Virus record (IMG/VR): IMGVR_UViG_3300028610_000201
Span: 1-41,491 of that record
DNA from: a virus
Reading direction: 5' to 3' (one strand)
DNA: 41,491 nucleotides
Position 1 is the stretch's first letter; each line of letters starts with the position of its first letter. A program made the position numbers and the translations under genes. The notes beneath the pieces were generated by a model, which was not told where the DNA came from, did no database searches, and saw only the letters and a list, made by a program, of their open reading frames with translations. Shown in pieces: positions 3,572 to 38,165 of this stretch.

Positions 3572-3924
3572 GCTTTTCCGGTGGAATGAAGTTTACCAGT
3601 CATATAGAAACCGACAGGCCAGACAAGGTGCTTGCAGCAATGTTCAAAGGTATCGACTTCGGGGCAGTGGTTATCAAAAAGGCAGCACAAGACGAGGTGC
3701 CTGTTGACACTGGTAAGTTGAAAAAGTCGATTAAGATAAAAAAGATTAAAGACGGTAAGTCTATCGGGCCTGACACTGACTATGATATCTATGTTGAATT
3801 TGGTCATCATACTAAGGCGGGCACATTTGTTCCTGCACAGCCGTACATGCGCCCGGCGTTGCAACAGAATAGGAAAGAGATAGCAGCTTTCACAGCGAAA
3901 GAAATACGGAAGGTACTTAAATAA
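3568..3924 (+). CDS. HK97 gp10-like head-tail joining protein
   Basis: 118 aa. The pattern 'VPVDTGKLKKSI', then 'YDIYVEFGHHT', then 'QPYMRPAL' near residues 45-95 is the signature of the HK97 gp10 family (PF04883), tail-completion proteins that act at the head-tail interface. Start and stop overlap both neighbours by a few bases, so it belongs to one translationally coupled cluster. Confidence 0.8.
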   Translation: MSFSGGMKFTSHIETDRPDKVLAAMFKGIDFGAVVIKKAAQDEVPVDTGKLKKSIKIKKIKDGKSIGPDTDYDIYVEFGHHTKAGTFVPAQPYMRPALQQNRKEIAAFTAKEIRKVLK

Positions 3925-4334
3925 TGGCGTCATATATCGAGGGAGCCATGAGGTCGATTCTGGTGGATACACCAGCCGTTAATACATACAGCGGGAGCCG
4001 GGTATACTGGGGTCGTACACCACAGAAACCGACGACACCGTTTATTGTGTTCTTCGCAGTGAGCGACTTGCACCAGCCGTTATATATGACACTGGACGGG
4101 TCGGGTTCCGAGACAGGGCAGAGGATGTTTCAATTCAGCTGCATGGCTGAGGACAGTATTCAAGTACAGTTGATGCAACAGGCGGTGATGGATACTTTGC
4201 GATGGGCGCAGGGTACATCGTATGGGTTTACGATTGAGAATGTTGAGATAGAGAACATGAGGCAGCGGGTCGACCCGACGACAGATTTATTCGTCTGCGA
4301 CGTTGACGCGATAGTAGAATATTATGAGGCATAG
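3924..4334 (+). CDS. Tail terminator protein (copy 1)
   Basis: 136 aa. Position after the gp10-like gene and before the tail tube, size, and the 'GRTPQKPTTPFIVF' and 'TGQRMFQFSCMAEDS' segments fit tail terminator proteins (DUF3168-like/gpU fold) that cap the tail tube. A clear paralog lies at 11326-11850 and shares 'TLRWAQGT.YGFTIE' and a C-terminal 'VEYYEA'. This copy is in the canonical position and probably keeps the terminator role. Confidence 0.65.
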   Translation: MASYIEGAMRSILVDTPAVNTYSGSRVYWGRTPQKPTTPFIVFFAVSDLHQPLYMTLDGSGSETGQRMFQFSCMAEDSIQVQLMQQAVMDTLRWAQGTSYGFTIENVEIENMRQRVDPTTDLFVCDVDAIVEYYEA

Positions 4335-10010: not shown

Positions 10011-11329
10011 TGACAGATTTAAAAGTAGCAGCAGCGACAGTGACGATACCGATAGGCCCGTTTATTACGAGCGACGGCACAGCAGTAACGGCATTCACGT
10101 TGTCGGCAGGGGATATACAGCTAAGTAAAAACGGCGGTGCATACGCATCGAAGAATCATCCAGCGTCAGCGGTACACATGGCAAACGGATGGTTCGGATG
10201 TTTGCTGGACGGGACAGATGCAGGGACGTTGGGACAGCTTGATTTACACGTCACAGCAGCCGGGGGCGGTACAGGAAAACTGCCTGTTTGGAAAGAACTT
10301 GCTGTGGTAGCATCGAATTACTGGGCAATAAAATATGTTGCTGACTACGGTGTAGCACAGGGGTCGGTTGTCGCAGGGGTGGCACAGGCTTCTACGGTCA
10401 CCGGAGTCGCACAAGCGAGCACAGTGGCCGGGGTTGCGCAGGCGAGCGCGTTAGCGGTTATCGATACGAATTACGCACAGGCTTCAACCGTTGCCGGAGT
10501 TGCTCAAGCGTCGACAGTAACGGGCGTTGCTCAAGCGTCGGCACTGGCGGTTATAAATACGAACTACGCACAAGCGTCAACAGTGGCAGGCGTAGCACAA
10601 GCCAGCGCCACGACAGCGATATTAGCGAAGTTCCCGGTAAGCGTTGTATCAACGGTCACAGACGGGGCTCAAGCAACAACTGTGGCGGGAGTCGCGCAGG
10701 CGTCGACGTTGGCAACAGTAAACGGACAGTTTCCGTTATCGTATGTGACAGCTATCGGTACAGCATCGCATCTTAATTCACTGACTACGGTTGACGGAGT
10801 GGCTCAGGCTACGGCGTTGGCTGTTATAAATACAAACTATGCGCAAGCAAGTACGGTGGCCGGGGTCGCTCAAGCAACGGTATTGACGACAGTAACAAAT
10901 AAGTTTCCGATATCCGTGGTCACGGTGGTCGAGTCATTATCAACTGCTGATTCAATAAAATCTTACTTCCCAGTCAGTGTAGTATCAACAGTAACAGACG
11001 GGGCGCAGGCAACCACAGTTGCAGGAGTAGCACAGGCGACGTCAATATCAGCTATCGGGCCCGCACGGGGTGTCGAGATTGCTGACTTCCCGTTCTTCAT
11101 GAAACTTGCATCGGACAGCATTACACCGGCCTCGTCGTTGAACCCGGTGGGGTTTATCAAAAAGGATTCCGGCACGCTGGTGTCGCTTACTAACGCGGTC
11201 GCTGAAATATCGTCTTACGGTATGTACGTTGTTACGGTGACGTCTACTGAGATGACAGCAGACAAGGTGACTCTGATATTCACGGCAGCCGGTGCCGATC
11301 AAGTTGATATTATAATTATTACGACATGA
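10010..11329 (+). CDS. Repetitive tail fiber protein
   Basis: 439 aa. Residues ~1-110 form a beta-rich N-terminal domain resembling phage 'DUF'-type fiber heads. Residues ~117-345 are a chain of at least twelve short repeats of the form 'VAGVAQAS(T/A)', interspersed with 'LAVI.TNYAQAS' and 'KFPVSVVSTVTDGAQATT'. Residues ~350-439 are a C-terminal beta domain. The repeats suggest an elongated fibrous shaft of variable length. Start overlaps the preceding stop (TAATG). It probably contributes to host binding. Confidence 0.6.
   Translation: MTDLKVAAATVTIPIGPFITSDGTAVTAFTLSAGDIQLSKNGGAYASKNHPASAVHMANGWFGCLLDGTDAGTLGQLDLHVTAAGGGTGKLPVWKELAVVASNYWAIKYVADYGVAQGSVVAGVAQASTVTGVAQASTVAGVAQASALAVIDTNYAQASTVAGVAQASTVTGVAQASALAVINTNYAQASTVAGVAQASATTAILAKFPVSVVSTVTDGAQATTVAGVAQASTLATVNGQFPLSYVTAIGTASHLNSLTTVDGVAQATALAVINTNYAQASTVAGVAQATVLTTVTNKFPISVVTVVESLSTADSIKSYFPVSVVSTVTDGAQATTVAGVAQATSISAIGPARGVEIADFPFFMKLASDSITPASSLNPVGFIKKDSGTLVSLTNAVAEISSYGMYVVTVTSTEMTADKVTLIFTAAGADQVDIIIITT
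10356..11043 (+). repeat. Tandem imperfect coding repeats of the fiber shaft
   Basis: About twelve imperfect copies of a 24-30 base unit encode 'VAGVAQAS'-like residues, and a longer segment encoding 'VSTVTDGAQATTVAGVAQA' occurs near 10645 and again near 10983. Third codon positions differ among copies, so the array is old and kept by protein-level selection. It could still change length by recombination. Confidence 0.8.
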
Positions 11330-11850
11330 TAATACAATTCAGAGCAGGGCCCATGGCACAACCCCAGGTATACTTTGACCTGGGTTTTGCATATCACGTC
11401 TACTCATTGATCGGGGTGGAGATTATAACTCCGGGGGTGACGGTACAGACTATCGAGGGCGTGGTGCGGTTTATATTGAAAGACACCACGACCGTGAGCG
11501 ATATATGCGACGACCGAATATACTGGCTTAAAACACCACAGAAACCTGAGCTTCCTTATGTAGTGTTCGGGTCGGGCAGCGACCCACACGACGCACTTTA
11601 TATGTCGCTTGACGGGTCGAAAGCAAAGACCGGCCAGCGACGTTTTCAGTTTACCTGTGTGTCGGACGACAGCCTTGAAAGCCTGGAATTACAGCACCAG
11701 GTAATGAATACATTACGATGGGCACAAGGCACGACATACGGGTTCACTATTGAGGTGATCACGATGGCAGATATGCGACACGATATATCACCGGAAACCG
11801 ATCTGTACGAGAACCAGGTCGAGGTTAATGTAGAATATTACGAGGCGTAA
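11326..11850 (+). CDS. Second tail-terminator paralog with N-terminal extension
   Basis: 174 aa. From about residue 40 it aligns throughout with the protein at 3924-4334: 'IEG..R.IL.DT', 'TPQKP..P', 'LYM.LDGS', 'TGQR.FQF.C', 'TLRWAQGT.YGFTIE', 'VEYYEA'. The N-terminal ~38 residues have no counterpart. It sits between the repetitive fiber and the hub gene, far from the head-tail joint, so it may have been recruited as a tail-tip component. ATG 11326 overlaps the preceding stop but lacks a good ribosome site. ATG 11353 is an alternative. Confidence 0.65.
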   Translation: MIIQFRAGPMAQPQVYFDLGFAYHVYSLIGVEIITPGVTVQTIEGVVRFILKDTTTVSDICDDRIYWLKTPQKPELPYVVFGSGSDPHDALYMSLDGSKAKTGQRRFQFTCVSDDSLESLELQHQVMNTLRWAQGTTYGFTIEVITMADMRHDISPETDLYENQVEVNVEYYEA

Positions 11851-20568: not shown

Positions 20569-20935
20569 CCCGGAGTATCCTGACGGACACCTTGAGGTAT
20601 TCTTCGACAACGAGCAAGGTAAGTGGATACCGCGTGGGCTGTACAATAAAAAGCTGGCAGATGGTTACGCACCTGAAACGATATGGATAAAGTTTGCTAA
20701 GGCACCGCAGTTTAAGAAAGAGCCTGCCGTCAATAAGAAAAAAATATACAACATGGCCGAGCTGATGAAACACGCGTACACGGTACTTAACGCCAACCAG
20801 AAAGCCGAGTTCAAAAGCCAGTTCAAAAAGGGTATGAGCGTTGACGAAAAGATACTATGTTTCCCGGAAACGTTCCGTCCGATATTCAGGCTGATGCACC
20901 TACACGAAAACAAGCTGTGGGGTACTGCGAAGTGA
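20522..20935 (+). CDS. Unknown early protein
   Basis: 137 aa from ATG 20522 behind AAAGGAG at 20508-20514. This start overlaps the replication gene by 47 bases. Basic, mixed alpha/beta. The middle part 'YNMAELMKHAYTVLNANQKAEF' is helical. Its stop overlaps the GTG start of the HNH gene. Unknown function; co-translated with replication genes. Confidence 0.55.
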   Translation: MAKRKIYREFYHTVVNPEYPDGHLEVFFDNEQGKWIPRGLYNKKLADGYAPETIWIKFAKAPQFKKEPAVNKKKIYNMAELMKHAYTVLNANQKAEFKSQFKKGMSVDEKILCFPETFRPIFRLMHLHENKLWGTAK

Positions 20936-21234
20936 GACCGATAAGAATAAGTAAACTAAAGTCAACATCATGGAAGAGGGTGTATATGAAACAGGCATTT
21001 AGCGACGATACACGGGAATATATCTGGGAACGGGCTCATCACACTTGCGAGCTGCAGGCAGCGAAATGCACGTTCACGCAAGGATGCTCACCGCACCACA
21101 TTATTGCCAACACGAAAACTAACCGCAGGGTACACGGCAACGACGTAATACAGTCAGCACGCAACGGGGTGCTGCTGTGTCACAGTTGCCACGAACGGCA
21201 CTCATATATTTACAGGGGTTTACGGGATGACTGA
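20932..21234 (+). CDS. HNH endonuclease
   Basis: 100 aa from GTG 20932 (GTGA overlap), with ATG 20986 as an alternative start. Residues include 'CELQAAKC' and then 'CSPHHIIANT' (the H-H of the beta-beta-alpha-metal core), and the C-terminal 'LLCHSCHERHSYIY' supplies the Cys pair and the last His. This is a compact HNH nuclease. It is a free gene inside the replication block. It overlaps the cytosine-methylase-like gene by 8 bases, so the pair may act as a nicking/modification unit, although this is speculative. Confidence 0.7.
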   Translation: MRPIRISKLKSTSWKRVYMKQAFSDDTREYIWERAHHTCELQAAKCTFTQGCSPHHIIANTKTNRRVHGNDVIQSARNGVLLCHSCHERHSYIYRGLRDD

Positions 21235-27701: not shown

Positions 27702-28589
27702 ATGAAGAAAGTTTTAATATTGGTAGCGTTGTTTGTTTTCGCAGGGGGGCTGTTGTTTGCAGGGCCTATTGAATGGGGTGGATCGTTTACGTTTAAGCTG
27801 GGGGCGAACCCGCGCAACATATCGTTTGACCACACGGCACCGGGGGAGTTCGCTGATATTAGTGCGGACTTCGAGGTGCAGATTGACGAGACAAACTTAC
27901 TGCACACGTCGGTGGGTGGTACTGATGGAATATCAGTCGGTGACACGTATCTGCAAAGCGACTGGATAATATTCACTACGAAGCTGGGAACCACGGCTTA
28001 CGATTCGTTCGGGTACGCGGTATCTGATAAAGAGTATGAAGTGAAAGCGAACAGTATTGACGGTGCTGGTGTATCAATTGAGATACCCATTGGCGGGTTT
28101 ACTATCGGTGCAGGCAAGTTTTTTGATCCGTGTATCGGCGGTGTCGGTGCATCGTGGGAAAATGATATTCTCGGCATCGGTGTCAACTATGTAGGAGATT
28201 TTACTGTTAAGGATGAAACCTGGGCGCATACAGTCTCAGGTGGTGTAAAGGTTGCACTGGGCGATTTCTCGTCAGGTGCAGGCATACGTTACGACGATAC
28301 GGTATGGGCCGGTGGTGTAGGTGCGAAGTACGATTTTGGTGTACCGCATATAGCTGCCGGTGTTGGTATCGAGCAGACAGACGATGGTACGGAAACGAAG
28401 TTCGGTGCTGACACAGGGTTCGAGTTCGACACATGGGGCGGGCTGTTTTCAGCGAGCTATGTAGAAATGATAGACGTTATCAATATGTCGATATGGTACA
28501 AGCCGGGAGTTGTGAAGTTCAAGACAGGCTACGACTGGAACGCCGAAGCCGTAGACGAGATTTATATCGAAGTGTCGGCTGACTTCTAA
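27702..28589 (+). CDS. Exported outer-membrane-like beta-barrel protein
   Basis: 295 aa. A Sec signal peptide covers residues 1-20 (two lysines, hydrophobic core, cleavage after 'LLFA'). The mature part is built of alternating hydrophobic/polar strands with Gly/Tyr/Phe ends, and its last residues ('DEIYIEVSADF') end in Phe, as required for outer-membrane barrel insertion. It resembles spirochaetal porin-like proteins in style. A virion role is unlikely. It may change surface permeability or exclude other phages, and next to the sugar importer an uptake role is attractive. Confidence 0.65.
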   Translation: MKKVLILVALFVFAGGLLFAGPIEWGGSFTFKLGANPRNISFDHTAPGEFADISADFEVQIDETNLLHTSVGGTDGISVGDTYLQSDWIIFTTKLGTTAYDSFGYAVSDKEYEVKANSIDGAGVSIEIPIGGFTIGAGKFFDPCIGGVGASWENDILGIGVNYVGDFTVKDETWAHTVSGGVKVALGDFSSGAGIRYDDTVWAGGVGAKYDFGVPHIAAGVGIEQTDDGTETKFGADTGFEFDTWGGLFSASYVEMIDVINMSIWYKPGVVKFKTGYDWNAEAVDEIYIEVSADF

Positions 28590-28669
28590 TGATAGGAGCG
28601 ATTGTTTTTGGTATTATGTGGGTTGCTATCTCAGCAGCCAACATAATTATATTGTGGAAATGTTCATAA
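28589..28669 (+). CDS. 26-aa membrane peptide
   Basis: ATG 28589 overlaps the stop of the beta-barrel gene (TAATG). The whole peptide is one hydrophobic helix ending in a short charged tail ('IIILWKCS'). Too short for homology. It could be a small membrane partner of the barrel or the importer. Coupling argues for translation. Confidence 0.4.
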   Translation: MIGAIVFGIMWVAISAANIIILWKCS

Positions 28670-28678
28670 GAGGGTAAA

Positions 28679-29980
28679 ATGAATAACAAAAAATATGATG
28701 TAGTGGTGCTCGGTGGCGGGGTGGCTGGATGCAGTGCTGCGATAGCTGCTGCCGAGCAGGGGGCAAAGGTCGCGCTTATTGAGAAGGAACCGTATCTGGG
28801 AGGGCTGCCCGTTGGTGCCTACGTAATAGCGATGTGCGGGTTCTACAACGGGCATCTTGGCAAAGACCGTGTTGTTGCCGGTAACTTCAAAAAGATAGCC
28901 GACCGGGCAATAAAGATGGGCCATGCTGTCGGCACGAAGTGGAATCGGGAATGCAAGCCGAAGGATGCACGCGAGGTTACTATCGACCCGGAGGGGTTCA
29001 AGCACGTACTGGACACGGTAGTGCTGGAGGCCGGGGTTGACTTGTATCTGAGGGCGTTTGCATCAAGAGTTTATTACGACGAAGGCACAGAAACTCGACC
29101 CGAAAGTATCGGTGGAATAATGATTCTTGGCAAACAGGGTGCTATGACTATAGAGGGGCACACTTTCATTGATTGCACTGGTGACGCCGATACTGCCGAG
29201 TGGCTTGGATTAACTACCATGCAACCGTTTGTTGACGGGCCTGTGACAATGAGTATACGTATCGCTGGTGTTGACCGGTCAAAGGCGCAGTTTGATAAAG
29301 ACAATCCACCACCACCGGATATCAAGTTTGAGGGCGGGAAATACACAACCGTACCTGACCGACTGCCGATATCGGGGTGGATGGATATCAAGAACAAGAC
29401 CGGCGAATACTACGACTGCATGGCGATAGTCGGTGTGCAAGGGTTGACGTACCACGACCAAACGATAGCCGAGGTACGGGGCAGACAGTTGGCGCATGAG
29501 GCTATTGTCCAGCTTCGCAAGATACCGGCGTACAAGAATTGTTACCTGGTATCGACAGGGACGTTGCTCGGCAGCCGTAAAGCACGGATGGTTATCACAC
29601 AGTATTACCTGACAGACGAGGACGAGAACCAGAACCCGTACGATTCGATTGCCATAGCAGGAAATGTGATGACTGACTACGGGGCGATGAAAATACCGTT
29701 CCGGTGCCTGAAACCGAAACGCATTAAGAACCTGTTGTATGCAGGCAGGACGTTTACGCCGATGTACCACAGCGATAAAACGCAGGGTGGCGAGGCCATA
29801 CCGAAAAGCAACAGGAACTTTCTTGCATACGAGATACCGCGACTGATAGCGATATGTATGGCGACAGGCGAGGCTGCAGGCGTGGCTGCTACCAAATGTG
29901 CTGACAATGAAATGTCTGTCGATGAAGTGGACGTGGGAATTGTTCAAGACATATTGAAACAACGCGGGGCGATATATTGA
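28679..29980 (+). CDS. FAD-dependent oxidoreductase (PF12831 type)
   Basis: 433 aa behind AAGAGGG. Dinucleotide-binding motif 'VVVLGGGVAGCSAAIAAAEQG' (about residues 8-28, cited in part) followed by 'VALIEKE'. 'FIDCTGDADTAEWLG' near 165 and 'STGTLLGSRKARMV' near 297 are hallmarks of FAD_oxidored enzymes, and 'LLYAGRTFTPMYHSD' near 355 is the C-terminal FAD-contact region. Members often sit in bacterial carbohydrate gene clusters beside sugar ABC transporters, where they are presumed to oxidise a sugar or polyol derivative. Cytoplasmic. Substrate unknown. All key motifs are present, so it should be active. Confidence 0.85.
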   Translation: MNNKKYDVVVLGGGVAGCSAAIAAAEQGAKVALIEKEPYLGGLPVGAYVIAMCGFYNGHLGKDRVVAGNFKKIADRAIKMGHAVGTKWNRECKPKDAREVTIDPEGFKHVLDTVVLEAGVDLYLRAFASRVYYDEGTETRPESIGGIMILGKQGAMTIEGHTFIDCTGDADTAEWLGLTTMQPFVDGPVTMSIRIAGVDRSKAQFDKDNPPPPDIKFEGGKYTTVPDRLPISGWMDIKNKTGEYYDCMAIVGVQGLTYHDQTIAEVRGRQLAHEAIVQLRKIPAYKNCYLVSTGTLLGSRKARMVITQYYLTDEDENQNPYDSIAIAGNVMTDYGAMKIPFRCLKPKRIKNLLYAGRTFTPMYHSDKTQGGEAIPKSNRNFLAYEIPRLIAICMATGEAAGVAATKCADNEMSVDEVDVGIVQDILKQRGAIY

Positions 29981-30007
29981 TTGACGAAAACTAAAAGGAG
30001 GGATGAT

Positions 30008-30274
30008 ATGACAAGAGGAGAAATACACTCTAAAGCAATTGAGATTATGGATTCAAAGGAAATTGCAAAAGAAAAGAAACAACAAAATTGGCAGTATTTA
30101 AACGACTGTATGGAAGCCGATATTTGTCCGCAATGCGGGGCCAGACGAATAGAAGGCCATGTGTGGCGATGGTCATGTTTTATTCCATATAAAAACACTA
30201 CCTACGAATGCTCAGAGCAATGCGGATATACTTCAGAAATCGATAGTCAATCCTTATGGGTGATGATGGGATGA
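30008..30274 (+). CDS. Zinc-ribbon small protein
   Basis: 88 aa from ATG 30008 behind AAAGGAGGGATGAT. Residues ~41-44 (CPQC) and ~69-74 (CSEQC) form a zinc-ribbon; the N-terminal 35 residues are a charged helix. It lies inside the transport cluster but its role is unclear. AT-richer codon use than the FAD gene suggests an independent origin. Confidence 0.55.
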   Translation: MTRGEIHSKAIEIMDSKEIAKEKKQQNWQYLNDCMEADICPQCGARRIEGHVWRWSCFIPYKNTTYECSEQCGYTSEIDSQSLWVMMG

Positions 30275-30284
30275 GGATAATATT

Positions 30285-30524
30285 TTGATTGACGAAGATT
30301 ATGTCAAACAGTGTGTGATACCGCCACAGTACCAAAAGACGTTTCCACGTGGTTGGTTCACATCGGAGCACGTCGCTAATTACAAAATGATATGGCAGAA
30401 CGCACCACTGCCGAAAGCGTGGATACCGATAGAGATTTATATGCTTGAGATAAAACGCATGAAAGACGAGATACGTAAAGCACTGGAAACGGTGCTGGAT
30501 TCAATTAACGAAAAACTTAATTAA
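30285..30524 (+). CDS. Small protein, unknown
   Basis: 79 aa from TTG 30285 (weak ribosome site; an internal ATG is possible). Aromatic N-terminal half, then a C-terminal amphipathic helix ('MLEIKRMKDEIRKALETVL'). It precedes the solute-binding protein by 11 bases and may be translated with it. No family recognised. Confidence 0.45.
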   Translation: MIDEDYVKQCVIPPQYQKTFPRGWFTSEHVANYKMIWQNAPLPKAWIPIEIYMLEIKRMKDEIRKALETVLDSINEKLN

Positions 30525-30535
30525 CGGAGGGCAGT

Positions 30536-31882
30536 ATGAAGAAATTGATTTTAGTTTTACTGTGTCTGTCATTGTTTGTATCAGTGGCATTCGCAGACAG
30601 AGGCAAAGAGGAACCGATCAAAATTATCATGATTCATGGGTACGCTGATTATTACCAGCCGATGTTGGACGAATGGTCAGCTGAGCATCCTGAAGCTGAG
30701 TTTGTATGGGTGCCAAAGGGTTCGGGCATAGTGGCTGCTGAGGCATTGATAGCAGCGAAAGAACCGCCGAACCTTTTCATTGCGACACCGGGCGGGATAG
30801 GGAAATATCTTGTGCCTGGGTTTGCTGCGGAACTGTCACAGTACCTTGATCTGTCAGATTTCAAAGACGGCGCTTATGACATTTTCGTCCGTGATGGTGG
30901 CGTTTATGGCCTGCCAGTGACGTATGCGGTAAACGCTTTCAGTATCAACTTGACGCTTGCTGAGGCGGTCGGTATCGACATAAGCCGGTATCTTGACCGT
31001 GATATGCTGTCGATAGAAGAGTTCACACAGTTCTGTCAGGCGATTAAAGATAATGCACCTGAAGGGTACTATGGGACGGCTATATGGGCAGGTAATAGGG
31101 GATCACAGCAGATCAACCTTCACTGGTTGACAGCGTTCGGGGCTACCGTATTTGAGAACGGCGATTATACGAAAACCACGCTGAACTCACCAGAAGCTGC
31201 ACAGGGAATGAACTACATGAAGTTCCTTGTGGACAGCGGATTCGCACCACCGGAAGCGCCAGTGCTTGACGACGACGAAGCCATAGCAATATGGGCGTCA
31301 GGTAAAATCGGCGGGTTGTGGGCGAGAGCAGGCGGTTGGCTTGGCATGATAGACAACGCGGTATCACAGGGTATGTCTGATAGCGACGAGAGGCACGATC
31401 ACATGTTCATGACTTGGCCGGTAGCTGACGGAGTCAAGAGTAACCCGATGTCGTTCGGCGGAGCAGCAGGGCTTGTGATAGCAACAGGCGATCCTGAGAT
31501 AGACGCACTGGCTGCCAGTCTGTTAGATACAATGACAGGCGCTGATGCACAGATGAAGACTATCGCACCGGGAGCCGGGTACACTACACGGCATTCTGCG
31601 TTACAGCCACCACAGGACAACTGGCCAGCAAGCGCACACGTCAACATGGAGACCTATAATGCGGCAACAGAGTATGACGAGGGCTTTGAGCAATACACAA
31701 AGATTAGCGACCTGTGGGACGAATACGGCCCGCTGGACCTGGGCCAGTCGACAGTTTACAATTCAGCGTTGACCGCCGAATGGCTGGCTGTTTTTCAGCC
31801 GTTCATGCTGGGCGAGATAACAGCCGAGGAAGCACTGGCAACGTTTGAAAAGAAGTACAATAAGATATTAGCAGGCGAATAG
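30536..31882 (+). CDS. Periplasmic sugar-type solute-binding protein of an ABC importer
   Basis: 448 aa behind AACGGAGGGCAG. Signal peptide residues 1-20 with cleavage after 'VAFA'; no lipobox cysteine follows, so the mature protein should be free in the periplasm of a diderm. Two-lobed family 1 binding-protein pattern (SBP_bac_1): 'KIIMIHGYADYYQPMLDEW', 'NLFIATPGG', 'YGLPVTYAVNAFSINLTL', a Trp-rich 'AIWASGKIGGLWARAGGW' and C-terminal 'AEEALATFEKKYNKIL'. The fold binds mono-, oligosaccharides or glycerol phosphates and hands them to the permease pair encoded downstream. The carbohydrate is not predictable here. Confidence 0.85.
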   Translation: MKKLILVLLCLSLFVSVAFADRGKEEPIKIIMIHGYADYYQPMLDEWSAEHPEAEFVWVPKGSGIVAAEALIAAKEPPNLFIATPGGIGKYLVPGFAAELSQYLDLSDFKDGAYDIFVRDGGVYGLPVTYAVNAFSINLTLAEAVGIDISRYLDRDMLSIEEFTQFCQAIKDNAPEGYYGTAIWAGNRGSQQINLHWLTAFGATVFENGDYTKTTLNSPEAAQGMNYMKFLVDSGFAPPEAPVLDDDEAIAIWASGKIGGLWARAGGWLGMIDNAVSQGMSDSDERHDHMFMTWPVADGVKSNPMSFGGAAGLVIATGDPEIDALAASLLDTMTGADAQMKTIAPGAGYTTRHSALQPPQDNWPASAHVNMETYNAATEYDEGFEQYTKISDLWDEYGPLDLGQSTVYNSALTAEWLAVFQPFMLGEITAEEALATFEKKYNKILAGE

Positions 31883-31889
31883 TAAAAGG

Positions 31890-32023
31890 TAGTCGGTGGC
31901 GGAAGTATCATTTGCGCGCTGGGCAAGGGCAGCCCTTAGAATGATTAGACGCTATAGACGTAGGTAACTCGTTATCTTGAAAGGCGGAAGTTACCGTGTA
32001 GGGTTCGAATCCCTCCCGACTAA
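31890..32023 (+). tRNA. tRNA-like element 1 (Leu-like, D-loop insertion)
   Basis: A 7-bp acceptor stem (31890-31896 with 32016-32022) and a T arm with canonical TTCGAAT loop (31999-32015) are clear. 'TGGCGGAA' and 'TAGACGC' look like the two halves of a leucine-type D arm, but 40 bases lie between them, closed by a 6-bp hairpin (ATCATT/AATGAT, 31907-31912 with 31940-31945). I cannot draw a standard anticodon stem with a 7-base loop. The total length of 134 nt is far above 73-90. No CCA is encoded. It may be a decayed or insertion-bearing tRNA, or a tRNA mimic. Confidence 0.45.
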
Positions 32024-32036
32024 ATAAGTTTTAAAG

Positions 32037-32144
32037 GTGACGGTGGCGTATTGGTAAGCGCCCGTGCTTGCAGGTTCAAAGACCATCCTGCTGGTAGACG
32101 GTAAACAAGTAAAGTGTCAGGTGGTTCGATTCCACCCCGTCACC
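32037..32144 (+). tRNA. tRNA-like element 2 (extended anticodon arm)
   Basis: A 7-bp acceptor stem (32037-32043 with 32137-32143, extendable by one pair), a canonical T arm (GGTGG-TTCGATT-CCACC, 32120-32136) and a plausible D arm (GCG, loop with GGTAA, CGC). Instead of a normal anticodon arm there is a long hairpin 32062-32101 (CCGT/ACGG at the base, GCAGG/CCTGC at the top, 12-base loop). Length 108 nt. A GCA triplet after TT is present, but without the pairing stem an identity cannot be assigned. It abuts the start of a permease remnant. Confidence 0.45.
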
Positions 32145-32145
32145 A

Positions 32146-32247
32146 ATGAAGGGCAAACGCACAATTCTGTTTTTCCTCTTAGGGCCAGGGGTTGCATTCT
32201 ATCCTGTACGCAACCCCTGTTATATAAGGACTGAATATGCCACATAA
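32146..32247 (+). pseudogene. Orphan N-terminus of an ABC permease
   Basis: ATG 32146 opens a frame whose first 18 residues (MKGKRTILFFLLGPGVAF) match the N-terminus of the permease at 32628 (MKGKKSILLMLLGPGAIF), 12 of 18 identical, although most codons differ. After residue 18 homology stops at a 10-bp hairpin, and the frame ends at 32247 inside the HNH gene. This looks like the original permease start, cut off by insertion of the HNH gene. No ribosome site precedes it; the tRNA-like element ends 2 bases upstream. Confidence 0.7.
32186..32219 (+). promoter_or_regulatory. 10-bp hairpin upstream of HNH gene
   Basis: CAGGGGTTGC (32186-32195) pairs perfectly with 32210-32219 around a 14-base loop. 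It is followed by TTATATAAGGA, so it ends about 7 bases before the HNH ribosome site. Hairpins near the start of free-standing homing endonuclease genes in T-even phages control their expression. A similar role, or partial termination, is possible. No T run. Confidence 0.5.
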
Positions 32248-32638
32248 ATACAAGGAAGACCGAAACGCTCAATGTCGCCGGCACAGAGCAAAGAATGTAG
32301 AAAAATTTCGGGAGAAAGATCGTTTATATAGACTGAACAATCCGTTAATATGTAAAATAAGAGTGAGGGAAGCGCAAGTAAAAAAAAGAATGCTGGTATT
32401 GAATCACTATGGTTGTAAATGTCAATGGCCGGAGGGGTGTGATGTTACGGATCCAGATATGCTACAAGTTGATCACATTAATGGGGGAGGCAATAAACAC
32501 AGAAAGGAAATAAATAAAATCTTCTTCAACTGGTTGATTGATAATGATTTCCCTCCGGGATTCCGACTTCTCTGCGCAAACCATAATGTGAAACATAGGT
32601 CAAATTTGCAACGGGAGAAGCGAGAACGTGAAGGGTAA
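32237..32638 (+). CDS. HNH homing-type endonuclease inserted at permease start
   Basis: 133 aa behind AAGGA. The N-terminal ~50 residues are basic and probably bind DNA. 'CKCQWPEGC', then 'LQVDHINGGGNKHR' (about residues 82-95), and 'LLCANHNVKHR' near the end make a complete HNH motif with the structural cysteines. AT-rich compared with the permease genes. Its last codons overlap the GTG start of the permease by 11 bases, so the endonuclease gene supplies the new start region for the gene it interrupts, as expected for a mobile gene that keeps its target functional. Confidence 0.8.
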   Translation: MPHKYKEDRNAQCRRHRAKNVEKFREKDRLYRLNNPLICKIRVREAQVKKRMLVLNHYGCKCQWPEGCDVTDPDMLQVDHINGGGNKHRKEINKIFFNWLIDNDFPPGFRLLCANHNVKHRSNLQREKREREG

Positions 32639-33476
32639 AAAATCAATACTGCTGATGCTTCTCGGCCCCGGCGCAATTTTCATAATATTATTCACCGTCC
32701 TGCCCTTTATTTTTATGTTCGAGCTTTCTTTCTTTCAGACGAACTATATATCCAGTGAGTTCGTTAAGTTGAAACATTTTACTAACACGTTTACAGACCC
32801 GGAATATTTAAAGGTGTTTGTATCATCACTGATATACGCGGGGGGGATATGTTTAGTAACTACGTTTACACCACTTGTATTCGCCCTACTTGCATACGAT
32901 ACAAAACGGTGGATGCAGAACTATACGAAATTCATTTTCTTTGTACCGAGCTTCACCTCTGGCGTGATTATGACAATGGTATGGCGGTATATATTCCAAC
33001 CGAGAACCGGCCTGATAACATACTTAACTGGATTGGTAGGGATACAGCCTGTGATGTGGATGGCCAACAGGTCGACGGCTATCGCAGGCATTAGCATAAT
33101 GACGATATCAGGTATAATGGGGGTGCCGTTATTAATATACATGTCAAGTATATTGAGTATAAACCCGGAAGTATTCGACGCAGCCCGGATAGACGGCGCT
33201 TCTCGTTTTCAAACCAAGACACGAATTGTTATTCCCATGCTGGGCCCGTCAGTACTTTTGGTAATTCTTATAACGATGATGTCAGGATTTTTCATCATGG
33301 AAACGATCCTCTTGATGACGGGAGGCGGGTACGGTACACAGACGTTTATATTTAACATATTCGACGAGGGCATAAACAACGGTAAAGTCGGCCTGGCGTC
33401 AGCACGTAACGTGATAATGTTCTTTGTAATAATGTTTATGGTATTCATAAAACGTAAAGTGGAGGCACGGAGATGA
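32628..33476 (+). CDS. Sugar ABC importer permease, MalF/UgpA-type
   Basis: 282 aa from GTG 32628. Six membrane helices: one N-terminal at about residues 10-32 and five in the core (for example 'LIYAGGICLVTTFTPLVFAL' and 'MFFVIMFMVFIK'). The coupling EAA loop is intact at about residues 178-198 ('EVFDAARIDGASRFQTKTRI'), the site that contacts the ATPase. Belongs to binding-protein-dependent permeases (PF00528). It pairs with the permease at 33640. The first 18 codons are a recoded version of the remnant at 32146. No ATPase gene exists in this genome. Confidence 0.85.
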   Translation: MKGKKSILLMLLGPGAIFIILFTVLPFIFMFELSFFQTNYISSEFVKLKHFTNTFTDPEYLKVFVSSLIYAGGICLVTTFTPLVFALLAYDTKRWMQNYTKFIFFVPSFTSGVIMTMVWRYIFQPRTGLITYLTGLVGIQPVMWMANRSTAIAGISIMTISGIMGVPLLIYMSSILSINPEVFDAARIDGASRFQTKTRIVIPMLGPSVLLVILITMMSGFFIMETILLMTGGGYGTQTFIFNIFDEGINNGKVGLASARNVIMFFVIMFMVFIKRKVEARR

Positions 33477-33643
33477 ATGATAAAGTTGTGAAAAAGACAG
33501 AAATCGGTGTATATGAAGCAGTGATGGAAATACTGAACTTCATTAATTTAATTGTTACAACGTCAGATAAAGAAACTGCACTGCAGGTATTAGATAAAAT
33601 GAGAGATACGGTAAATGACAGGCTGGTAGAATTGCAAAAATGA
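33473..33643 (+). CDS. Small helical protein between the permeases
   Basis: 56 aa. ATG 33473 overlaps the preceding stop and the stop overlaps the next start (ATGA at both ends), so it is translated with the permeases. Helical, acidic/lysine-rich, no membrane segment and no cysteine. AT-rich. Bacterial MalF-MalG pairs do not normally have a gene between them. It may be a phage addition. Unknown function. Confidence 0.5.
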   Translation: MNDKVVKKTEIGVYEAVMEILNFINLIVTTSDKETALQVLDKMRDTVNDRLVELQK

Positions 33644-34494
33644 AATACGTAATAATATTCCTATTCACTATTTTGCTGATATTTCCAATTTACTGGATGT
33701 TCAGCGGTAGCATACAAGACCTCGGTATGTTGATGAAAACACCACCGAACTGGATACCGAAAAACGTTACGTTAGCAAACTTTCAGCATTTGGCTGATGT
33801 TAGCCTGGAGGGGATGTATACTACAGCTAAGGAGGGCGGGTCGAGAGCGTTGCCGGTATGGACGATTAACACGTTCCTTATATTCGCCATGAAATGTTCT
33901 ATCAGCATATTGCTGGTATCAACAGCCGGGTACGCGTTTGCTGTGTATCGGTTCCGTCATAAGAACTGGCTGCTCCTGTTTTTTATCGTTGGTATGTTTC
34001 TCGGCCCGGCGGTAACGATAGTGCCGGATTATGTTGTAGTTAAACGGCTGGGGCTATCCGGTACATGGTGGGGTGTCGTGCTGCCGTTTGCTTATATGCC
34101 TGTCGGGATGTACATATTTAAAAATTATGTAGAAACAATACCGAGCGAGATGATTGACGCAGCGCGGATTGACGGTGCTGGGGAGTACCGAATACTGTTT
34201 CGAATCATGATGCCGTTATGCAAGCCGGTGATGGGGGTCCTGGTTGTGCTGACGGCGCTCGGTACGTTGCAGGACTATATTTGGACGTTGCTGATGATAC
34301 CGGAAAGGGAGAAACAAACGCTGATGGTAGGGATCATCGAAGAGGTACAGAAAGCGTCGGCGCTGTCAGGTGGCCGTAACCCGATAGGGATATCATTAGC
34401 AGGCGGCGTGATAATATTCATACCGCTGTTTCTAATATTTCTATTCTGTCAGCGGTACTTTATTAAAGGGCTGACACTGGGGGGCATTAAGTGA
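33640..34494 (+). CDS. Sugar ABC importer permease, MalG/UgpE-type
   Basis: 284 aa, six membrane helices, beginning 'YVIIFLFTILLIFPIYWMF', the usual first helix of MalG-like subunits. 'FAVYRFRHKNWL' follows helix 2, and the EAA loop 'SEMIDAARIDGAGEYRILFR' lies near residues 166-186. The C-terminal 'CQRYFIKGLTLGGIK' is typical of this subunit ('F..G...GAVK'). Together with the MalF-type subunit it forms the membrane channel. A host MsmK/MalK-type ATPase is required for transport. The stop overlaps the next gene (GTGA). Confidence 0.85.
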   Translation: MKYVIIFLFTILLIFPIYWMFSGSIQDLGMLMKTPPNWIPKNVTLANFQHLADVSLEGMYTTAKEGGSRALPVWTINTFLIFAMKCSISILLVSTAGYAFAVYRFRHKNWLLLFFIVGMFLGPAVTIVPDYVVVKRLGLSGTWWGVVLPFAYMPVGMYIFKNYVETIPSEMIDAARIDGAGEYRILFRIMMPLCKPVMGVLVVLTALGTLQDYIWTLLMIPEREKQTLMVGIIEEVQKASALSGGRNPIGISLAGGVIIFIPLFLIFLFCQRYFIKGLTLGGIK

Positions 34495-34850
34495 GCGAGC
34501 CAAAGATGTTCTCCTGCCGTGACTGCCATTATGTCGCTATAGCAGTAATAGCCGACCATCGTAAATGTGAGCACCCGTGTATAGCCGAGGCCGATCTTGA
34601 AGGCGACGGGCTCAAGAACTTTACGAAGGTTGACTGGAAAAAGATATTCGTTATCGTCAACGAGATACTGCAACTTGATATCACGGTGATCAACGGGGAA
34701 GTGCCGAACTTTGATTTCCCGAACAAGTTTGACACGGTATGGATAACGGGATGCCGAGGGTACAAGCAGTCAACACAGGGCAAGGGGTGGAACAAGATAA
34801 CGTCCGATACGTACTCAGGCGAAAACGTCGACGAGTCAATGGGGGACTGA
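34491..34850 (+). CDS. Cys/His-rich tandem paralog 1
   Basis: 119 aa from GTG 34491. FSCxxC at residues 7-12, C26-x-H28-P29, 'LEGDGL..FT..DW.K' and a final 'VWITGC.GY' (Cys near residue 84). The same residues occur at the same positions in the next two paralogs, so the Cys/His set is probably a metal site. The C-terminal ~30 residues are unique. It is coupled to the MalG-like permease, so it is produced with the importer. Confidence 0.65.
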   Translation: MSEPKMFSCRDCHYVAIAVIADHRKCEHPCIAEADLEGDGLKNFTKVDWKKIFVIVNEILQLDITVINGEVPNFDFPNKFDTVWITGCRGYKQSTQGKGWNKITSDTYSGENVDESMGD

Positions 34851-35176
34851 TGAAAGAGTTACACTTTTTCAGCTGTATAAACTGCGAACACGCGACCATG
34901 GTAAACGGTATTATATACCTGGAATGTGCGCACCCCGAGGTTGCTAAAATGAACTTCGAGGGCGACGGTGTTGAATCGTACACACCGGAGGACTGGCTGA
35001 AAGTCGATGAGCTGGCAAACAATCGGTTGCAAATGAGGACAATGACAATGGGCGACCAGACAATACACGGGTTCGAGTTCCCGTTCAAGTACGATCCGAT
35101 AATGATAATATCCTGCGGGGCGTTCAAGCAACGTGATCACGAAGAATATATGGTATACAAGGGAAAGAAGCGGTGA
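34850..35176 (+). CDS. Cys/His-rich tandem paralog 2
   Basis: 108 aa from ATG 34850 (TGATG overlap). FSCxxC at 7-12, C26-x-HP, 'FEGDGVESYTPEDWLKVDEL', 'FEFPFKYDPIMIISC'. Same order and spacing as its neighbours, and the only member with a short basic tail. The family fold is unknown; a compact metal-binding domain with one central helix is inferred. Confidence 0.65.
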   Translation: MKELHFFSCINCEHATMVNGIIYLECAHPEVAKMNFEGDGVESYTPEDWLKVDELANNRLQMRTMTMGDQTIHGFEFPFKYDPIMIISCGAFKQRDHEEYMVYKGKKR

Positions 35177-35346
35177 AGATAGAGGACGAGAATAGAATAG
35201 AGTTTGAAGATGGTAGTTTCATCACTGTGGATTCAAATGGTAGAATATTAATAGAAATATTGAAAGAACTTCGGAATATTAGAGAAATAGCAGAATCTCA
35301 AAAGAAATGGCGAATGTTCAGAGAAGGTAAGTTTGATAATGAGTGA
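35173..35346 (+). CDS. Small helical protein between paralogs
   Basis: 57 aa from GTG 35173 (GTGA overlap); stop overlaps the following start. It has an N-terminal beta hairpin ('IEFEDGSFITVDSNGRI') and a C-terminal helix ('ILKELRNIREIAESQKKW'), AT-rich. It resembles small phage proteins with no assigned role. Overlaps at both ends support translation. Confidence 0.5.
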   Translation: MKIEDENRIEFEDGSFITVDSNGRILIEILKELRNIREIAESQKKWRMFREGKFDNE

Positions 35347-35668
35347 AACAACGTTTTTCAGCTGTCACGATTGCTGTCACAAAGAGAAAGCAAAGAACCC
35401 GATATGGTCAAGGTGCGGTCATCCTGCCGTTGACGCTATAGAGCTTGAAGGGTATGGTATAGAAACGTACACTGCCGATGATCGTGTAAAACTGGACCAT
35501 CTGGTCAACGATGTATTGAGACTGAGGCTGGTCAATGCTGGCGAGAAAAAGATAATACCGAACTTTGAGTTTCCGTTTCAATACGAGGCGGTGTGGATAG
35601 CGTCCTGCAAAGGGTACGATAGGCACGGGAAGAAAGAACTTAAAATGTGGAAAAGTGGGCAAAACTAA
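35339..35668 (+). CDS. Cys/His-rich tandem paralog 3
   Basis: 109 aa from ATG 35339. FSCxxCC at 7-13, C26-x-HP, 'LEGYGIETYTADDRVKLDHL', 'FEFPFQYEAVWIASCKGY'. The closest relatives in the window are paralogs 1 and 2. Its third codon positions differ widely from theirs, so the duplications are old. The stop overlaps the next start (TAATG). Confidence 0.65.
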   Translation: MSETTFFSCHDCCHKEKAKNPIWSRCGHPAVDAIELEGYGIETYTADDRVKLDHLVNDVLRLRLVNAGEKKIIPNFEFPFQYEAVWIASCKGYDRHGKKELKMWKSGQN

Positions 35669-35913
35669 TGGCAAAAGTATATTGCAATTTATGTAAGTGG
35701 CATAGATGTTATCATAATGGTGAAGAAAAGGTTCATGAATGTATACACGAAGATAATAAAGCGATGGTTGATACATGGCTAATGACAAAACTTCAACAAC
35801 GGGTACATCCGAAAGAAAGAAATCAATGGAATAATTGTAAATGGTATGAAGATTTACCAGACAAAGAGAAGACGCTTGGATTAAAACCAAAATATGCACC
35901 GGGGTTATCATGA
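35668..35913 (+). CDS. Divergent Cys/His-rich protein
   Basis: 81 aa from ATG 35668. CNLC at residues 6-9, then 'ECIHED' (C25-x-H27) and 'NNCKWYED' near the end. The ligand order C-x2-C, C-x-H, C is that of the three upstream paralogs, but the 'LEGdG..T' centre is missing and codon use is AT-rich. It may be a fourth, reduced member or an unrelated zinc protein. Stop overlaps the next start (ATGA). Confidence 0.55.
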   Translation: MAKVYCNLCKWHRCYHNGEEKVHECIHEDNKAMVDTWLMTKLQQRVHPKERNQWNNCKWYEDLPDKEKTLGLKPKYAPGLS

Positions 35914-36647
35914 AAAAGTTACCAGCGATAATTATCGCACGAGGCGGTAGCAAACGCACGCCACGGAAGAATGTATTACCGTTCTGTGGCAAGCCATTGG
36001 TAGAGTGGTCGATAATACAGGCTCAGGCGTCCGAGGGTTGCTCTCCTGTGGTTTTAAGCACTGATGACGATGAGATTGCCGATATCGGCGATAGATGCGG
36101 TGTGGTGGTCTTACGGCGTCCTGTGATGCCTGACGAGACTTCTGGTGCTGTAGCGTTCGATATTGCGATAGACCAGTTGCGTGGTAATGGCGTCAAGTTT
36201 GATTCATTCATATCACTGTTGGCTACCGGCCCGTTACGGCTGCCGTGGAATTTGGATAGTGCGATATACAAATACTGGAGATTTGCGTACCCACGAAGGA
36301 CACAGGTTATATCAGGGTTACAGGTTGTACCGGCGATGCACATACCCGGCAAGATGGGTGGTGACTGGTATCGGCAATGGTATTATAAGGCGAACGAAAT
36401 CGGTATGATGGACATAGGTTTATTTTCAATATGCGACGTGGACAGCTACCGGGCGTGTATGCAACGGGTACACGGTGACGCGAAACACTTATTAAAAACC
36501 AGACGGCTTGTGGAAAAGGTTCATCCGTATAGTATATTTTACAAATGCAAGCCGTGGCAACAGACAGACATAGACTACCCGGACGAGTTCGAGTTCGCCG
36601 AGGTACTATTTAAACATTTTATTCTTGACAAGGGGTATTATCAATGA
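35910..36647 (+). CDS. CMP-sialic-acid-synthetase-like cytidylyltransferase
   Basis: 245 aa. The nucleotide-binding opening 'IIARGGSKRTPRKNVLPF' (about residues 8-25) with 'GKPLVEWSI' is characteristic of the NeuA/KdsB family (PF02348), enzymes that activate sialic acid-like or other nonulosonic sugars with CTP. 'VVLSTDDDEIADI' near residue 48 and 'RRPVMPDETSG' near 70 are further conserved steps. Length is normal. It is adjacent to the DUF115 gene, which could use the product. No enzyme that makes the sugar is present, so a host pathway must supply the substrate. Confidence 0.85.
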   Translation: MKKLPAIIIARGGSKRTPRKNVLPFCGKPLVEWSIIQAQASEGCSPVVLSTDDDEIADIGDRCGVVVLRRPVMPDETSGAVAFDIAIDQLRGNGVKFDSFISLLATGPLRLPWNLDSAIYKYWRFAYPRRTQVISGLQVVPAMHIPGKMGGDWYRQWYYKANEIGMMDIGLFSICDVDSYRACMQRVHGDAKHLLKTRRLVEKVHPYSIFYKCKPWQQTDIDYPDEFEFAEVLFKHFILDKGYYQ

Positions 36648-36838
36648 GCGATAATATTGAAGAATTGAAAAATGAAATATTTGAAGTTAAAATATCCCCG
36701 TCTGGTATTCATTATACATACGATTTAAAACATCAATTAACGATATTACAAGATAAGACGAATGAAATGATTCGAGCTATTAATGAACTTAAAGAGAGGG
36801 AACGCAATGAGCGACAAAGAAATAACCAGCGGTATTAA
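36644..36838 (+). CDS. Small coiled-coil protein
   Basis: 64 aa, ATGA overlap with the cytidylyltransferase. Charged helices with heptad spacing ('LTILQDKTNEMIRAINELKE'), ending in Arg/Asn-rich residues. Its last 32 bases overlap the start of the DUF115 gene. AT-rich. Could be a linker or chaperone for its neighbours. Unknown. Confidence 0.5.
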   Translation: MSDNIEELKNEIFEVKISPSGIHYTYDLKHQLTILQDKTNEMIRAINELKERERNERQRNNQRY

Positions 36839-38165
36839 CGACAACGTCAGCGAGTACGAACGGCACTACGGGGCGCAGGACTTCAACCCGAACACGAAGG
36901 ACGTGAAGCTACCGGTTGAAATCAAGCATGCGTACTTTAACCACCACTTTATCTATCACGATATAAGGGACGGTGACGGTGCGGACCTGTCGACGGTGAA
37001 CGTCGAGGGCAAGATACCGGCGATAGTGCTGGGGTCAGGGCCGTCGCTTGACGAGATTATGCCGAGGCTGAAAGAATGGAAGGGCGCGATATTCGCGAGT
37101 ACTTCACAGGTGCCGACGTGTTGTTATCATGGCCGTGCGCCGGACTACATTGTGGCGCTGGACCCGCATACTAATTTAACCGAGCTTGAATGTATCGACG
37201 ACTGGAAGAAGTACCCGAACTCGGTGCTTATAACGCACCCGGCAATATCACCGACGCTTGTGCAGGGATGGCAGGGTAAACGTCTTTACTACCGACCGAT
37301 GGAACCGTCGAGCGAATTTCACGCGATGCATTTACCGGTCGCATACGGCGAAGTTATACAGACGTACTGTCTGCTGTTTTCGTGCAGCCCGTCGGCACAG
37401 TTGGCACTTGCACGCAAGATGGGGTATGGGCCGATATACCTGGCGGGTCTTGACTTCGGGTTTCCAGAATATCACCGGCGTGCGACACAGTGGTATTTCC
37501 ACGAGCTTGAAGGATGGATTAAAGACCGGCCTGCTGATGTAGACAAAGACGACAGCAACTTTAAATCTGACAACCCGTTCAGACGACTTATATACGCTGA
37601 TAACGGATGCTGTAGTTCTGTCATGCACCTGTATTATAAACGGGCGTTCCTGTGTGTCGCAAACATCGATATGTCGGATATCGTCAAGCTAAAAACGTTT
37701 AACGCGTTGACGGAGTTCCCGGAGATAACGATAGACGAACTTATGGAGACACAGGGGCATCTACCGAAAGAACGGTTCTATTCACGATCAAAGAAACAAC
37801 GGCTATACGAAAACTACCTCGCCCGATTCTACACGTTCGCACTGCGGTACAAGGATAATTCATTGATGTACTTTGAGTGTTCACCGACTATCGAAAAGAA
37901 TATCGACAAGTTACCGAAGGATATGCAGGAAAAGATTGAGGCCGGTGGTGAGATAACGATAGACGAGCAGATCAAACAGTTTGTCACGAACAACTATATC
38001 AACTTACAGAAACAGGCGTTACAGGTGTTTCAACGTACCGGCAAGAAACCGGAAGAGCTGTTGAACCTGGACGCAGAAGTCAAACGATTACAGAGGTTAA
38101 ACCATGTTGCAGCCAAATACCGAGAAGAGTATGCCAATCGCCACAACGGGGAACATAGTAAATGA
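36807..38165 (+). CDS. DUF115/Maf-like protein (putative sugar transferase)
   Basis: 452 aa from ATG 36807 behind AGAGAGGGAACG. Residues ~70-250 match the DUF115/MptE-like domain (PF01973): 'PAIVLGSGPSLD' at 71-82, 'PDYIVALDPH' near 112, and 'IYLAGLDFGF'. The same domain is the core of Maf motility accessory factors, which transfer pseudaminic or legionaminic acid to flagellin. The C-terminal ~150 residues are helical and charged. With the CMP-sugar synthetase next to it, transfer of an activated nonulosonic sugar to a virion or host protein is the simplest hypothesis. Confidence 0.75.
   Translation: MSDKEITSGINDNVSEYERHYGAQDFNPNTKDVKLPVEIKHAYFNHHFIYHDIRDGDGADLSTVNVEGKIPAIVLGSGPSLDEIMPRLKEWKGAIFASTSQVPTCCYHGRAPDYIVALDPHTNLTELECIDDWKKYPNSVLITHPAISPTLVQGWQGKRLYYRPMEPSSEFHAMHLPVAYGEVIQTYCLLFSCSPSAQLALARKMGYGPIYLAGLDFGFPEYHRRATQWYFHELEGWIKDRPADVDKDDSNFKSDNPFRRLIYADNGCCSSVMHLYYKRAFLCVANIDMSDIVKLKTFNALTEFPEITIDELMETQGHLPKERFYSRSKKQRLYENYLARFYTFALRYKDNSLMYFECSPTIEKNIDKLPKDMQEKIEAGGEITIDEQIKQFVTNNYINLQKQALQVFQRTGKKPEELLNLDAEVKRLQRLNHVAAKYREEYANRHNGEHSK

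Follow-up and report, generated by a model that had tools for sequence, protein, structure and literature searches.

How can a sugar-transporter permease gene of a phage carry a putative homing endonuclease gene inside its 5' end and still encode a complete permease? Among phage homing endonucleases, those that invade genes are mostly known for breaking them into pieces. The locus studied here belongs to an uncultured phage represented by the IMG/VR virus record IMGVR_UViG_3300028610_000201, which was analysed over its whole length (positions 1 to 41,491; 41,491 nucleotides) and is called the window in the following. Terminase, portal, capsid and tail genes are present, together with a transporter cassette showing the order porin-like gene, FAD oxidoreductase, solute-binding protein (SBP), permease 1 and permease 2, followed by cytidylyltransferase and MptE-like genes. 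In the 5' part of the cassette the FAD oxidoreductase gene is found at 28679, and the gene at 27702, which gave no family match, is porin-like in our reading. The SBP gene (30536..31882; Pfam SBP_bac_1, 1.1e-17) is located 5' of the split permease gene, permease 1 starts with GTG (32628..33476; Pfam BPD_transp_1, 6.5e-9) and permease 2 occupies 33640-34494. As no ABC ATPase gene was seen in the window, the transporter encoded by the phage may rely on an ATPase of its host. The SBP gene, permease 1 and all features described between them are encoded on the plus strand.

A sequence-only reading of this DNA had noticed that the 18 residues encoded from ATG 32146 onwards and the N-terminal 18 residues of permease 1 are alike in protein and mostly different in codons, and both parts of this observation could be reproduced at exactly these positions. 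The stub (32146..32199), whose frame begins with MKGKRTILFFLLGPGVAF, and the second permease 5' end (32628..32681), which reads MKGKKSILLMLLGPGAIF, are identical at 12 of 18 residues but at only 32 of the 54 bases, and 8 of the 12 identical residues are encoded by different codons if the AUG/GUG start is counted in. Their BLOSUM62 score is 64, compared to 28 for the best other 18-mer in the six frames of the window and 23 for the best other 18-mer beginning with a start codon, and none of 200,000 shuffles of the stub reached this value (maximum 56). A general similarity of permease N-termini as the source of this likeness was ruled out, as the stub scores at most 23 (7 of 18 residues) when compared to 28 further permease loci of phages and bacteria, a set that includes cassette-bearing phage relatives and, in part, repeated copies of a single contig. 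As the stub is far closer to permease 1 than to any of these, we regard it as an allele of permease 1 and not as a generic membrane helix. The base differences between both copies are distributed over codon positions 1, 2 and 3 as 7, 3 and 12, and this enrichment at the third position (Fisher p=0.007) suggests that the two copies diverged while both were protein-coding. The second 5' end is therefore indeed divergent, as had been claimed, but its description as "recoded" is better replaced by ordinary divergence of permease alleles, since the differences lie mainly at third positions. The homology ends in frame at codon 18, and a possible continuation via a one-base frameshift (SILYATPVI) was not significant (p about 0.13). 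The open frame of the stub itself extends over 33 codons to a TAA stop (32146..32247).

Two relatives lacking an HNH gene between SBP and permease were identified, namely contig 3300028840_002452 (L003) from a terminase scan of IMG/VR and 3300028837_001552 (L055) from a permease 2 profile search. L003 shows the same order as the window (terminase, porin-like, SBP, permease 1, permease 2, cytidylyltransferase, MptE, portal) and L055 the order SBP, permease 1, permease 2, cytidylyltransferase, MptE, portal; the placement of the SBP gene is equal in all three, and their permease 1 sequences are 39-40% identical to each other. In L003 a tRNA-like element lies between SBP and permease, and the permease ATG (14246) follows directly 3' of it (...CTGTGCC A ATG), matching the junction before 32146 in the window (...CGTCACC A ATG). 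As this junction is common to both phages, ATG 32146 is probably the old permease start and the HNH gene probably an insertion, L003 being the one informative relative for this comparison of sequences. With respect to the tRNA-like element, the permease ATG of L003 is placed identically to ATG 32146. In L055 there is a 14-nt overlap between the permease GTG and the SBP stop, and neither a tRNA-like element nor a stub is present, so the junction varies within the family. An uninterrupted permease starting exactly like 32628, which the sequence-only reading had named as the observation that would speak against it, was found neither in L003 nor in L055, whose N-terminus is only distantly similar to both window copies and thus does not start in this way. 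Searches with the permease, the HNH protein or the SBP revealed no further close relatives in IMG/VR besides L003 and L055, and GTDB genomes contained distant permeases only. Close relatives of a donor or a recipient permease allele were not found in the collections searched, and the comparison of the alleles comprises 18 codons. A scan of 393 genomes from the phylum of a Sphaerochaeta genome, run without a positive control, did not detect the HNH gene. As a separate observation, a cassette of SBP, two ABC permeases, cytidylyltransferase and MptE-like genes adjoins the packaging genes in three phages (window 27702-38165; L003 11970-19625; L055 872-6363).

The gene between stub and permease (32237..32638) encodes a putative nuclease of 133 aa with 27-43% identity to proteins of other phages (tblastn and alignment), two of which are annotated as HNH endonucleases. 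Pfam and NCBIfam profiles gave no match for this copy, whereas PHROG HNH families match five of the six aligned proteins and the window copy itself weakly (0.0069). The alignment shows that D79-H80 is kept, as are the zinc ligands except for one C-to-H change: D79-H80 and C62/C68/C113 are shared with the small HNH proteins Munch 436, Galactica 103, ANB28 and Wayne 49, which possess C-x2-C pairs where the window protein has C-x5-C and C-x2-H. The annotated and profiled relatives together with the conserved DH and most zinc residues identify the product as a predicted HNH protein. An AlphaFold model of the protein alone was unusable (mean pLDDT 43). With a GC3 of 0.385 the gene deviates from the SBP gene and both permease genes (0.51-0.57), and permease 1 shows the native base pattern of its counterpart permeases. 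Both observations point to the HNH gene as a foreign piece, and as a few other genes of the window are likewise low in GC3 we take its composition as support and not as proof. Relatives of the HNH gene in other phages are found between unrelated genes, as is expected for a mobile gene, and the four proteins named above are annotated between separate genes, in contrast to the location within the 5' end of a gene in the window. The presence or absence of the HNH gene at the site between SBP and permease is polymorphic, with the two phages lacking it, L003 and L055, being distant relatives (permease identity 39-40%). The gene is not part of an intron or intein, as it has its own start, stop and ribosome site; a group I intron or any other known RNA element was searched for at the insertion site, with a tRNA as the sole Rfam match. 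A second HNH protein of the window (20857-21234) shows no similarity to the one described here, and L003 carries a relative of this second protein at the matching place, upstream of a helicase/methylase-like gene.

The HNH gene is connected to its neighbours by two overlaps of equal length. As had been reported from the sequence, its last codons overlap the new permease start, with 11 nt shared between the end of the HNH frame and GTG 32628: GTGAAGGGTAA. On the other side, the stop of the stub frame and the HNH start likewise overlap over 11 nt: ATGCCACATAA. A ribosome-site match (AGGA) is present 6 nt 5' of the HNH ATG, whereas none was found at the stub ATG 32146. Upstream of the HNH ribosome site a perfect 10-bp inverted repeat with a 14-nt loop spans the end of the stub (32186..32219) and could form a hairpin; three such perfect repeats occur in the window, whereas random sequences of similar composition contain between zero and two. 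We rejected this hairpin as an intrinsic terminator, as no T-run follows it 3' and it was not flagged by a terminator scan, whose loop limit of 3-8 does not cover a 14-nt loop.

The stub, the second start and the junction in L003 agree with the claim that a homing-type HNH insertion split the 5' end of the permease gene, and also the claim of a divergent second 5' end that keeps the reading frame holds, as GTG 32628 opens a complete permease of 282 aa. We consider it rather probable that the HNH gene entered the permease gene of the phage in its 5' end, close to codon 18, and that the second 5' end originates from a diverged allele by HNH-driven recombination. The putative enzyme would have cut the recipient phage near the permease start, around codon 18, and the break would have been repaired from a co-infecting relative with a diverged permease, which would have supplied the HNH gene together with the permease start linked to it. 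The permease body would have served as the right-hand homology, and the left end would have been joined without homology, leaving the stub behind. GTG 32628 would then belong to the start of that diverged permease allele, and translation might pass from the stub to the HNH gene and on to the permease, coupled through the 11-nt overlaps. The permease is read from the second 5' end, which encodes nearly the peptide of the stub with mostly different codons, and the probable old start is stranded.

One could also imagine, as in the strong form of the sequence-only reading, that the HNH gene travels with a replacement N-terminus of 18 codons as a single mobile unit (about 32200-32681), which was inserted after codon 18 and restored the frame, with codons altered against cleavage. 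The homology of the two copies stops in frame at codon 18 without support for a frameshifted extension, the permease body has native composition, and replacement gene ends of similar size are known from endonuclease ORFs of fungal mitochondria (PMC3630166), all of which would suit such a unit; a second occurrence of it was not found, however, and the right-hand edge of a foreign part is not discernible in the sequence, so that we regard this as doubtful. Equally doubtful in our opinion is the corresponding view of a homing element of the phage that brings along a codon-altered gene start and keeps the rebuilt permease, just after a tRNA-like element of the kind found immediately before the permease start in HNH-free L003, both readable and uncut. 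Such an element would be a self-repairing counterpart, at the N-terminus, of the C-terminal hybrids of mitochondria. Immunity of the rebuilt permease would follow if the cut site is located within the first 18 codons. A duplication of the permease 5' end in place, with the HNH gene arriving between the copies and the copies diverging afterwards, would explain that both are near each other in the same orientation. Yet a base divergence of 40% with an excess at third positions requires that a stub of 18 codons, which gives no complete protein, remained under selection for a long time, and the combination of conserved protein and changed codons argues against this origin, making it quite improbable. 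A role of the stub as a functional leader peptide, with its translation set by the tRNA-like element and handed on to HNH and permease and its likeness to the permease kept for this reason, would fit the chain of two 11-nt stop/start overlaps but is hardly credible, as the stub lacks the ribosome site that the HNH gene has, no leader frame precedes the permease in either HNH-free relative, and the coupling could have arisen secondarily from the insertion.

The preferred explanation, replacement of the permease start by a diverged allele, has its closest counterpart in fungal mitochondria, where an endonuclease ORF can be located between the remnant of a native gene end and an alternative copy fused to the gene, as in atp6 of Allomyces macrogynus and in atp6, atp9, cox2 and nad3 of Glomus sp., with high protein identity and low DNA identity between the copies of the gene end (PMC3630166). 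Likewise, the window has its HNH gene between the stub and a second start fused to the permease. Differences are that the mitochondrial hybrids involve LAGLIDADG or GIY-YIG enzymes and not an HNH enzyme in a phage, that their donor origin is backed by phylogeny whereas the donor in the window is deduced, and that they replace the C-terminus. As the N-terminus is replaced here, the window case would work like these hybrids, yet we do not file it as a member. For free-standing homing endonucleases of phages co-conversion of flanking sequence is standard and gene splitting is documented, with mobE in nrdA of Aeh1, mobA in T4 gene 60 and seg43(25) with gene 43 as cases of splitting or adjoining a gene (PMC2988022). 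The window resembles these in having an HNH gene in a phage gene with start/stop overlaps, which for segF also amount to 11 nt, and in a strong hairpin that ends shortly before the ribosome site and leaves it uncovered, as described for seg43(25) from Aeromonas phage 25 (PMC2988022). The known phage splits yield two polypeptides that reassemble, whereas the window permease stays whole because its lost 5' end is made up for by the second one. That co-conversion and foreign gene ends on endonuclease ORFs are documented elsewhere was counted in favour of allele replacement. As the replaced end is not C-terminal and the permease is left whole, we regard the locus as a variant distinct from both the mitochondrial hybrids and the gene-splitting phage endonucleases; a literature search of limited depth found no description of such a gene-start version in a phage. 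The case suggests that during the invasion a gene can recover a 5' end by taking it over from a diverged allele, with traces of both alleles remaining readable in the sequence. Confirmation would extend a process known from the gene ends of fungal mitochondria to phages and to gene starts, and would provide a signature that can be searched for, in which a stub and a second start on either side of an HNH gene agree in protein and differ in codons.

Two tRNA-like elements, which like the hairpin had not been mentioned in the sequence-only reading, lie between SBP and stub. The first (31890..32022) was recognised by a pattern scan from its 7-bp acceptor stem, T-arm and an insertion in the D-loop, with no normal anticodon arm; it has no Rfam tRNA match, and its fold is no better than that of shuffled sequences (z -0.58). 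The second (32036..32145), which abuts the stub ATG, matches the Rfam tRNA family 32.4 bits above the gathering score and folds with a z of -3.92. Functional tRNAs were ruled out, as ARAGORN found none in its default settings and relaxed settings gave only degenerate matches, for example a tRNA-Ala with a 15-nt intron. The elements of the window (31890-32145) and of L003 (14158-14245) share a 7-bp acceptor stem, a T-arm and leucine-type features of the D-arm, and the normal anticodon arm is missing from both. In both phages a discriminator A is followed at once by the permease-type ATG, without a ribosome site. Speculatively, tRNA-processing enzymes might set mRNA ends at these elements and thereby create a leaderless start.

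Related genes also occur at other places of the window. Positions 34491-35668 encode three paralogues in tandem, small proteins bearing cysteines that are 32-38% identical to each other. Furthermore, a gene of the tail region exists in two copies (3924-4334 and 11326-11850), which are 53% identical over 132 residues.
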